A stretch of DNA of 64,000 nt from NCBI GenBank assembly GCA_947474435.1, contig CANJII010000003.1, positions 62,001 through 126,000 on the forward strand, given 5' to 3'. Shown piece after piece: positions 48,205-59,877 of this stretch. The stretch's first letter is position 1. Each line of letters starts with the position of its first letter. The translations under genes were made by a program, and so were the position numbers. The notes under the pieces were generated by a model. It was given only the letters and a program-made list of their open reading frames with translations. It ran no database searches and had not been told where the DNA came from. The stretch comes from Chitinophagaceae bacterium. Its GTDB lineage: Bacteria > Bacteroidota > Bacteroidia > Chitinophagales > UBA10324.

Positions 48205-48319
48205 ACTGTCGTTTAATAACCCGACAAAAATATAAAGCAGAAGCCAACCATTTATGCTTTGGTAATAATGTTGGCAGAAAGAATTGGAATTCATTTGGCA
48301 ATAGTTTCTTTTGCAAAAC

Positions 48320-50254
48320 ATGAAGAGATGGTTATCACTTGCAATTAACTGGCTGGCTGTTTTAGTGCTTCTTTTCATACTGGAGAAAGGAATATTTCTC
48401 CTGTACTTTTTTCACAAGACTTCACAACTTTCGATTGCTGATATCATTGGTGTTTTCACTCATGGGTTGTGGTTGGATATTTCTTTAACCTCCTATCTGA
48501 TAACGATACCACTAGTTTTCTTTTTAATTCAATTGCTATTTGAAAAGAGAATAATGAGTTTGAATAGCCTCGGTTCGTTTCCTCATGAACCGAAATTTTC
48601 GGAGCGTGAAGACACGCGCCGAGGTAAAATGATGAGTTTGTTTTTCAAAATTTATTTGCCAATTATTTTTTTCATCATCGGATTATTGTTCGTGGGTGAT
48701 TTGGGTATTTATGAAAACTGGAGCACCAAGTTGAATGTGCGCGCCATTCAAAATATTTTAAATCCGAAAGAGATGATGGCATCAGCAGGTGCATCACCGG
48801 TTTGGCTCTACATATTGATAATTATTGCGCATGTAATTTATGGTTGGTTTGCTGCGAAATTTTTAAGCAACAAAAAATTTGCAACCGCAGTTGGCGGAAT
48901 AAGGTGGTTGAACATTCCATACTTTTTTCTGATGAGCGGATTTGCTTTTCTTGGAATCAGAGGAGGATGGCAGGTGGCCCCCATGAATGAAAGCAGTGCC
49001 TACTTTTCGCAAAATGCTTTTGCCAATCATGCAGCAATTAATACAACATGGTATGCCATTCAATCCATAATCAACATAAAAAAATATGATACGCACAATC
49101 CATATAAATTCATGAGTGATGAAAAAGCAAAGGAGTTGGTTGCTGATTTATATAAATCAAAAATTGATTCTTCATTAAAAATTTTTAAAACTGAAAAACC
49201 CAATGTTGTTTTTATTCAGATTGAAAGTTATGGTGCCGATGTGGTGAAGGAGTTGGCTGGTATAGAAGGACTTACTCCCAATCTTTCAAAAATTATAAGT
49301 GAAGGATTGTTGTTCGAAAATATTTATGCAAGTGGTTTCCGTACCGACCAGGGATTGGTTTCCATGCTTTCAGGTTTTCCGGCGCAACCAAATGTGTCCA
49401 TCATCTGGAATACAGAGAAGCAGGAAAAGCTACCAACAATCACACAAAAAATAAAACAGAAAGGTTACAACACACAACTGATTTATGCAGGCGATATTTT
49501 ATTCAGCAACATGAAGGCATTTGTGGTGCACAACGGTTTTGAAAAAATAATTACTGAAAACGATTTCGCCATTTCAGACCGCACATCAAAATGGGGTGTT
49601 TATGATGGTGTTATGTTTCAACACGCGATAAAAGAAATCAATGAAATAAAACAACCATTCTTCACTTACATCATCACACTCACAAGTCATGAGCCGTATG
49701 ATATTCCATCGCAACCAAAATTTCCGGGAGAGGATGCAGCAGAAAAATTTAAGAGCGCCTGTTATTATACTGATGAAACACTTGGTGAGTTTTTTACAGA
49801 AGCAAAAAAACAATTGTGGTATGCAAACACCATTTTTATTCTTTGTGCTGATCATGGTCATCGCTATCCTTTTAACAGAGAAGCTTACATGCCCGCTGTT
49901 CATCACATTCCATTGATTATGGTTGGCGGCGCATTGAATGATAGTTTAGCTGGAAAAAGAATTTTATCCATCGGATCCCAAACTGATATTGCTTCAACTC
50001 TGCTTCACCAATTGGAAATTAATTCGGAAGATTTTATCTGGAGTTCTGATTTGTTAAATCCATCAACAAAAAATTTCGCTTACTATTCATTCGATGATGG
50101 TTTTGGTTGGGTGAGCCGGTATGATACCATTGCATACAGCAACACTTTTAAATGTTTATCGTGGCCATATAATTCAACCGATTCGTTGCACTCTTCTATT
50201 GACACCGCCAAAGCCTACCTGCAAACATTATTTAATGCATATCTGAAATATTGA
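48320..50254 (+). CDS. LTA synthase-like sulfatase-family membrane enzyme
   Basis: N-terminal TMs then PNVVFIQIESYGADVVKELAG...GFRTDQGLVSMLSGFPAQP, FILCADHGHRYP. Confidence 0.92.
   Translation: MKRWLSLAINWLAVLVLLFILEKGIFLLYFFHKTSQLSIADIIGVFTHGLWLDISLTSYLITIPLVFFLIQLLFEKRIMSLNSLGSFPHEPKFSEREDTRRGKMMSLFFKIYLPIIFFIIGLLFVGDLGIYENWSTKLNVRAIQNILNPKEMMASAGASPVWLYILIIIAHVIYGWFAAKFLSNKKFATAVGGIRWLNIPYFFLMSGFAFLGIRGGWQVAPMNESSAYFSQNAFANHAAINTTWYAIQSIINIKKYDTHNPYKFMSDEKAKELVADLYKSKIDSSLKIFKTEKPNVVFIQIESYGADVVKELAGIEGLTPNLSKIISEGLLFENIYASGFRTDQGLVSMLSGFPAQPNVSIIWNTEKQEKLPTITQKIKQKGYNTQLIYAGDILFSNMKAFVVHNGFEKIITENDFAISDRTSKWGVYDGVMFQHAIKEINEIKQPFFTYIITLTSHEPYDIPSQPKFPGEDAAEKFKSACYYTDETLGEFFTEAKKQLWYANTIFILCADHGHRYPFNREAYMPAVHHIPLIMVGGALNDSLAGKRILSIGSQTDIASTLLHQLEINSEDFIWSSDLLNPSTKNFAYYSFDDGFGWVSRYDTIAYSNTFKCLSWPYNSTDSLHSSIDTAKAYLQTLFNAYLKY
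48568..48624. repeat. 57-bp palindromic, cloverleaf-like element in frame in the sulfatase gene
   Basis: Outer CCTCGG (48568-48573)/CCGAGG (48619-48624) enclosing GGTTC..GAACC, CGAAATTTTCG and GCGTGaagaCACGC. Confidence 0.75.
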
Positions 50255-58236: not shown

Positions 58237-59877
58237 ATGAAAAATATTTTTCAATCACCATACATACTCATCTTTATTCTCTGCTTGTGTTCAGTTGCAA
58301 TCAGAGTTCCACAATTAAATCGTCCGCTGAGCAAGCATCATGAATTTGTAACGGCTCATGCTTTGCGCACAATGGAAATATGGAATATGCAAGGCGCATC
58401 ACACTTTAATTTTAATCCGGTAATGAGTTATGCGGGCAATGAAAATAAATTCATCAATAACCAGACAACAGAAAATTATGATGCTGCAGGAAACTCTTAT
58501 TACCTGAGTTATCCTCCTTTTGCTTACATACTACCATACTTTGTTTTAGGTGGGTGGATGAATGCACCAACTGTTTTATCACTTCAGTTATTTAATATGT
58601 TGTTGCATTTGATTGAATGTTTTTTTTTGTATCAAATCTGTTTTTTGTTATTGCCTCGGTTCGTGTCCACACGAACCAGAATAAATAAAATCGGAATCAT
58701 TGCCGTGCTCGTTCATTTATTTTCTCCATGCTTATTGTGGTTTCATGGGAATGTTTATTTCACTGATATGCCGGCGCTCACCTTTTTTCTGTTGAATGTT
58801 TGGTTGTGGTTGAAGTATAGTGTTGAGGTGGTTCGAGGGGACACGAACCATGGCGCAGGCGAGGTAGTTCGTGATGACATGAACCTCGGCGCAAATAATA
58901 AACTGCCTCAGTTCGTGTCTCCACGAACCGAAACAAATGCATTGATGCTTCTTGCCTTTTTTATCAGCTCATTTTTATTTTCATACACTGAATATCTCGG
59001 GGTCACTTATGCAATTATCATTTTCATTTATTCACTTTTCAACCGAAAATATTTATTCAAAGCAATCAGTATTTGTGCCGGCTCAGTTTGTGCCATTGCA
59101 TTAATGCTTTATCAATATTCATTAATCGGTGGTTGGGAAAAACTGATGGCGTTTATGCAACTTCGATATTCCGTTAGAGGAGCAAGTCCACATTCTTCCA
59201 TCACACAATTATTTCTGAGTTGGAAAATTATTGCAATGAATTACTTAACCGGATTTGCGCCATGGATTTTATTATTAGTGATTTTAATTTTTATAAACCG
59301 AAGGAAATTTTTCAAACAAAAATTTTTCAGTCACTCAATCATTTCCCGACTTGAGGTCTGGGATTTCAGCTTCGCTTCAACAAGCATTAAAATTTTTATT
59401 CTGTTGCTCGCTCCGGTTTTGTTGCATCACATTTTATTTCTCAATGCAACAGGTCACGATTTTCAGCAGATGAAAGCCTCACCATTTCTTGCAATAGCAA
59501 TTGCGATGGGTTTTGTTGCGGTCAATAAAAATTGGATGAAAATTATTTTTTCAATTGTTTTAGTTTCGAATATTTTTCTTTTCTATATGATAAACCCCCC
59601 GGGAAAAATTTCTTTAACAGGTGATAATTATAATTTGTTTTTGCAGCAAGGAAAATTTATTCATGAAAATGCAAGTGCCGATGAAGTTGTTTTTCTCAAT
59701 GGAATTTTGGATGAACCTCAATTGGTTTGGTATGCGCAGCGGAATCTTCGTACCATTCAATCAACTGATGAAGCGTATAATTTTTTAAAACAACACAACC
59801 TGACGAAAGGAATTATTTTCACATTTGACCGCAAACAAATTATAAGGGTTGAACAACACATTGAACTCGCGCACTAA
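58237..59877 (+). CDS. Polytopic membrane glycosyltransferase (GT39/GT83-like)
   Basis: 546 aa, many TMs; LNRPLSKHHEFVTAHALRTMEIW, YLSYPPFAYILPYF, WFHGNVYFTDMPAL. Confidence 0.82.
   Translation: MKNIFQSPYILIFILCLCSVAIRVPQLNRPLSKHHEFVTAHALRTMEIWNMQGASHFNFNPVMSYAGNENKFINNQTTENYDAAGNSYYLSYPPFAYILPYFVLGGWMNAPTVLSLQLFNMLLHLIECFFLYQICFLLLPRFVSTRTRINKIGIIAVLVHLFSPCLLWFHGNVYFTDMPALTFFLLNVWLWLKYSVEVVRGDTNHGAGEVVRDDMNLGANNKLPQFVSPRTETNALMLLAFFISSFLFSYTEYLGVTYAIIIFIYSLFNRKYLFKAISICAGSVCAIALMLYQYSLIGGWEKLMAFMQLRYSVRGASPHSSITQLFLSWKIIAMNYLTGFAPWILLLVILIFINRRKFFKQKFFSHSIISRLEVWDFSFASTSIKIFILLLAPVLLHHILFLNATGHDFQQMKASPFLAIAIAMGFVAVNKNWMKIIFSIVLVSNIFLFYMINPPGKISLTGDNYNLFLQQGKFIHENASADEVVFLNGILDEPQLVWYAQRNLRTIQSTDEAYNFLKQHNLTKGIIFTFDRKQIIRVEQHIELAH
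58658..58677. repeat. Perfect palindrome GGTTCGTGT-CC-ACACGAACC inside the GT gene
   Basis: 9-bp perfect arms, 2-nt spacer; in frame, encodes RFVSTRT. Confidence 0.85.
58825..58930. repeat. Cluster of three palindromic elements, two as a 36-bp tandem repeat, inside the GT gene
   Basis: Units 58825-58860 and 58861-58896 (26/36 identical) plus inverted core GTTCGTG-TCTC-CACGAAC 58911-58928. Confidence 0.85.

Follow-up and report, generated by a model that had tools for sequence, protein, structure and literature searches.

GTAG-type REPs are linked to RAYTs, and both GTAG and CGTC REPs were described in 2013 within ORFs, where they encode 20-30 aa and include the Rickettsia elements RPE-4 and RPE-6 (PMC3733652). 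In the Bacteroidetes, the TnpA-REPs of subclass 2.6 (Bertels group 5) were presented in 2018 as proteins of about 180 aa with the hallmarks NHIH, WQ, YIHNNP and SS, accompanied by atypical REPs that lack GTAG and are copied elsewhere in the genome (PMC6006769, in the portion of that article used here).

The window, that is, the whole stretch of 64,000 nucleotides from a Chitinophagaceae bacterium that was analyzed, carries palindromes that very probably form a REP family moved in trans by a Bacteroidetes-type RAYT (TnpA-REP, an HUH/Y1 single-strand transposase of subclass 2.6). This reading is based on the dispersal of the copies, the filled and empty sites in sister species, the RAYT genes bracketed by inverted copies, and the REPIN-like doublets. 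As described for subclass 2.6 in the same portion of PMC6006769, the host is of the Bacteroidetes type, the RAYT of ~180 aa has the same motifs, the flanking hairpins lack GT[AG]G and copies occur elsewhere; however, the hairpin is strong here, compared with the weaker structures reported there, and the in-gene, in-frame insertions and the series of filled and empty sites are undescribed in that portion. Like the GTAG and CGTC REPs (PMC3733652), our elements are palindromes of 20-40 bp that form dimers and are mostly intergenic, with a minority in frame within genes, but they have a conserved GTGTCC tip instead of a GTAG or CGTC tag, and their host genes are not the DNA-repair genes emphasized in that work. 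The likeness to Pseudomonas REPINs is one of description, not of sequence: both are dispersed, RAYT-linked, inverted two-hairpin doublets, whereas the present family differs from those in the relevant part of PMC3116915 by its low copy number, its motif and its occurrence also within genes. Rickettsia RPEs are likewise palindromes that are read in frame as part of conserved proteins and often tolerated; they span 105-146 bp (PMC2229807), unlike the 29-bp units and 62-63-bp doublets found here, which fall short of that length. The shorter RPE-4 and RPE-6 are CGTC REPs (PMC3733652), and hence closer to the present family. The kind of element is thus already known, from the atypical REPs of subclass 2.6 (PMC6006769, same portion) and from REPs within ORFs (PMC3733652). 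Our literature search did not find the full palindrome in print; it may be listed in the supplement of REP sequences of PMC6006769, which lay outside that search. The palindrome family, its entry into genes, the series of zero, one, two and three copies, and the fixed GTGTCC tip with its covarying stem are the new parts, with no earlier description found in the portions of the literature covered.

The initial annotation had reported, in a glycosyltransferase gene, a 36-bp tandem unit followed by an inverted copy. Both 36-bp units (58825-58860 and 58861-58896, identical at 26/36 positions), each with its GTTC...GAAC palindrome, and the inverted copy (58911-58928) are present, and all three keep the frame of the 546-aa ORF between two predicted helices (residues 177-200 and 232-251). 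These three copies are real, but the count was incomplete, as a fourth, perfect palindrome upstream of site B (58659-58676, at site A) had been missed. Similarly, the tandem repeat stands, but not as a fixed 36-bp unit: it consists mostly of two head-to-tail elements of ~29 bp, and the 36-bp length is not fixed elsewhere. A second site in the window, an in-frame inverted doublet in another gene (48565-48627), was also absent from that annotation. The coordinates of all these features are collected in the table below.

Features of the window that host or constitute palindrome copies, with encoded peptides and scores against covariance model R1
Feature	Position	Strand	Details
Sulfatase gene, the other host gene of the window; its 647-aa product is an LTA-synthase-like membrane protein of the sulfatase family	48311..50254	+	PF00884, 1.2e-37
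REP doublet, first half; in frame, inverted pair (REPIN-like)	48565..48595	-	encodes SLGSFPHEPK; R1 36.7 bits
REP doublet, second half; GGAGCGTG/CACGCGCC stem variant	48597..48627	+	encodes SEREDTRRG; R1 24.4 bits
GT gene: 546-aa membrane protein ORF with GT-C glycosyltransferase-like fold; hosts four REP copies	58237..59877	+	
REP copy, site A; perfect palindrome GTTCGTGTCCACACGAAC	58651..58681	-	encodes LPRFVSTRTR; R1 44.5 bits
REP copy 1, site B	58826..58856	+	encodes VVRGDTNHG; R1 38.0 bits
REP copy 2, site B; head-to-tail after copy 1	58862..58892	+	encodes VVRDDMNLG; R1 33.5 bits
REP copy 3, site B; inverted	58903..58933	-	encodes LPQFVSPRTE; R1 46.4 bits

Although searches of Pfam and NCBIfam returned zero families over cut-off for the GT gene product, its AlphaFold model (mean pLDDT 84) matches GT-C enzymes, among them ArnT and STT3 (E about 1e-6), which makes the label "glycosyltransferase" given to it earlier reasonable. 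Residues 198-229, in the loop between the two helices, have a pLDDT below 50, and the site B insert is predicted to be disordered.

Alignment of the copies yields the consensus TTTCGGTTCGTGrgGACACGAACCGAGGC, with 29 conserved positions and sharp boundaries on both sides. The element of ~29 nt folds as a 10-bp hairpin (-12 kcal/mol as DNA) with a fixed tip, GTG-TCCn-CAC. No GTAG or CGTC foot was found in it; the foot is GCC (reverse complement GGC), often YGCC. Because the REPs of subclass 2.6 also lack GT[AG]G (PMC6006769, in the portion used), we file the element with them and not with classic REPs. The covariance model R1 detects 25 full-length copies in the genome of the window (G000) and gives 45, 21 and 8 matches, strand duplicates included, in the congeners G005, G004 and G002, respectively, so that an imperfect palindrome of 20-40 bp is repeated many times per genome, as in REPs. 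Ten of the 25 copies lie in four confirmed genes, while the other 15 lie between genes or at gene starts that are ambiguous, the intergenic calls being based on ORFs and not on annotation. The copies are therefore mostly extragenic, a bias less marked than most REP families show, and the suspicion that a genome-wide palindrome family enters protein genes in frame proved correct. Many of the copies belong to doublets of 62-63 bp, in which two stem variants are inverted relative to each other and the outer ends read GCC...GGC; this arrangement resembles REPINs. The palindrome is present in its exact form in 13 of 61 relatives, and a broader palindrome pattern is rare in a sample of the phylum (6/149 genomes by tool tally). 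Two candidates were set aside: a GCGCGTG type considered as a large sub-family has two copies only in the window genome, both of them doublet halves, and a palindrome at C7:92028 (L011), whose flanks are unmatched, was treated as chance.

Other repeats were observed in the relatives. Loci L039 and L040 (G044 and G056), from another family of the order, hold doublets of GTTAGTG and GTTCGTG hairpins, REPIN-like with mixed stems, whose ends are TTTCG/CGAGGC and CTCGGC. Another RAYT of G002 (L126 1097-1728) is flanked by a palindrome of a second family, GTTGTTGGTCGCCTGACCAACAAC. In the VWA gene of G002 and G004, this palindrome is read in frame as AVVGRLTNN within the N-terminal region, beside the GTTCGTG element (L190 485-502; L182 2570-2587). 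Coding segments for TLSLSK(S), perhaps a third dispersed repeat, recur beside palindromes in the N-terminal regions of VWA genes (L190, L182, L171).

Comparison with orthologues showed that the extra residues are an insertion, as the initial annotation had supposed, since they are missing from orthologues outside the genus and, at site B, from one inside it. Site B of the GT gene holds three, two, one and zero copies in G000, G005, G002 and G004, respectively, and is empty in the outgroup G010, outside the genus. The empty site in G004 could be a precise loss instead of an ancestral empty site. Site A is filled in each of the four congeners in which the gene occurs and absent in other genera; in G002 its copy is decaying and has lost the palindrome. 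The doublet of the sulfatase gene, translated as SLGSFPHEPKFSEREDTRRGK and flanked by AATAATGAGTTTG and AATGATGAGTTTG, a 13-bp near-repeat of target sequence, is absent in all five congeners (G001-G005), each of which has the gene. A gene for a metallo-beta-lactamase fold on contig C72 of the window genome contains two inserts, of 39 bp and net 21 bp, and both sites are empty in 5/5 congeners and in G010. In adenine deaminase, the linker that joins the Amidohydro_1 domain to Adenine_deam_C carries a doublet in the window genome and G005 only; the other four of the five congeners (G001-G004) lack it, and the matches of G008, G012 and G033 skip it. In addition, a VWA-domain protein has one copy near its N-terminal signal region in G002, G004 and G005. 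A Por_Secre_tail domain, which is typical of Bacteroidota, was detected in a congener and agrees with an assignment to that phylum.

Several observations count against the REP/RAYT reading. At GT site A and at the second lactamase site, sequence was replaced and not simply added. A copy number of 25 is low for REPs, and the element lacks the GTAG/CGTC foot of the classic ones. Furthermore, 13-bp direct repeats flank two copies, a feature not expected under the standard HUH single-strand model; an exact one, AAAAGTAAAATTT, surrounds a single REP copy on contig C58 of the window genome (L152 around 2472-2502). The flanks of 57 sites contain 4 good direct repeats versus 0.7 expected, but a general target-site duplication was rejected, as one of the four is the element itself duplicated and another a stretch of T, leaving two 13-bp cases and no rule.

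The link to a transposase comes from the relatives. In G004, of the same genus, inverted palindrome copies bracket a 183-aa RAYT gene whose product scores 80.7 bits against NCBIfam NF047646 (REP-associated tyrosine transposase; cut-off 80) and carries the motifs PNHIH, FWQRD, YIHNNP and YRYSSAQFY, in agreement with the subclass 2.6 pattern (NH[LIV]H, WQ, YIH[QN]NP, SS, ~179 aa). The RAYTs of G033, G044 and G056, from two other families of the order, are 50-53% identical and likewise bracketed by inverted copies. In the window genome no intact close RAYT was found, only a relic between two copies (39 C-terminal codons, 72% identical, with two stops). Because the cognate RAYT is a relic there, the family is probably no longer moving in this genome. 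As a close full-length RAYT is missing both here and in G050, which has 11 palindromes, the RAYT link is indirect in these two genomes. The RAYT encoded on contig C86 of the window genome was rejected as the cognate transposase. It falls in a distant clade, and a palindrome copy accompanies it on just one side, at a distance of about 330 bp, which is probably a coincidence. The C86 gene (L154), which adjoins tandem repeats, and one on C11 (L158) are two closely related, intact RAYT-like genes of that distant clade.

The motifs, the length of ~180 aa and the atypical REPs point to a RAYT/REP pair of the subclass 2.6 type, the tree presented here comprising our own sequences only. Judging from homology and from the bracketing, the RAYT would recognize the hairpin in single-stranded DNA and would paste single copies or doublets into new sites. 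Copies within genes would persist only if their net length is a multiple of three, if the frame is open, and if they are located in a loop, a linker or an N-terminal signal region, where they would drift as neutral ballast.

The flanking hairpins of other RAYTs of the clade (G026, G029, G012, G025) share the tip GTGTCCnCAC and differ in their stems. Among 12 tip-type hairpins, which were chosen for near-perfect stems, so that the percentage paired is biased and the variety of pairs less so, five of nine stem pairs change on both sides, while the four others, including the three GTG/CAC pairs that close the tip, are invariant; the covariation score of the stems exceeds that of all 500 shuffles. 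Flanks of the tip type appear in 8/14 rows of the RAYT clade in the tree and in 6/7 of its inner group. We offer as a tentative proposal, rather doubtful at this stage, that a Bacteroidota RAYT clade came to recognize the apex of the hairpin in place of the GTAG foot, with the tip fixed and the stem co-varying with each RAYT, and that gene entry is routine because five of six frames are open.

A different explanation holds that the hairpins are kept for a role in RNA or DNA, such as mRNA stability, termination or protein binding. Functions of this kind have been suggested for REPs (PMC3733652), and the RNA of site B folds strongly (-58.5 kcal/mol, z -5.8); however, the in-gene copies are partly degenerate, copy number varies between sister species and many orthologues have no copies, which makes this role improbable. 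The consensus is open in 5/6 frames, and four of these are used within genes (LPRFVSSRTE, LGSCPHEPK, SVRVLTNR, SVREDTNRG); a DNA element read in four of five open frames argues that no particular peptide is selected. The retention of GT site A and of the adenine deaminase linker insert among species would fit peptides that are useful, for instance because they change the length of loops in membrane proteins, and that came under selection once inserted. Against this, the inverted palindrome of site B reads LPQFVSPRTE in the window genome and TSVRVLTNRN in G005; be it the result of one ancestral insertion or of two, it does not preserve any one peptide. The predicted disorder of the GT insert, the decay of site A in G002 and the lack of site B in G004 also argue against useful peptides, which are quite unlikely. 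We infer that the inserts are tolerated, not selected, and that the palindromes apparently add tolerated, useless loops to their host proteins. Nothing supports protein diversification as a function, as first suggested, given the four frames, the predicted disorder and an old copy without palindrome.

Very unlikely, too, is a coding palindromic element in the strict sense of Rickettsia RPE-1, specialized for ORFs and diversifying proteins. The in-frame insertions across several gene families of the genus and their placement in loops, linkers or signal regions agree with it, but most copies in the window genome lie outside confirmed genes, no frame is preferred, the family is linked to RAYT genes, and RPEs are longer (PMC2229807). 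The initial annotation was therefore right about a palindrome family that inserts in frame, while its primarily coding, RPE-like element is wrong or unproven and gives way to a REP family tied to a RAYT transposase. Chance palindromes or convergent codons, which only the short length of the motif favors, can be dismissed: the window has seven palindrome matches where 1.46 are expected, dinucleotide shuffling of the GT gene produced none in 1000 trials, the reversed control is absent from all 61 genomes, and orthologues have empty sites.

Understood as a REP family of a Bacteroidetes-type RAYT, these elements provide a clear case history of a transposase-linked palindrome that enters genes and is tolerated there, as sister species show one and the same site empty or filled with one, two or three copies. 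They connect a Bacteroidetes RAYT group that has received little study with a concrete family of substrates, whose fixed tip and covarying stem make a testable prediction on recognition without GTAG. Annotators are warned that such stretches of 10-40 residues are mobile-element debris and not functional repeats.
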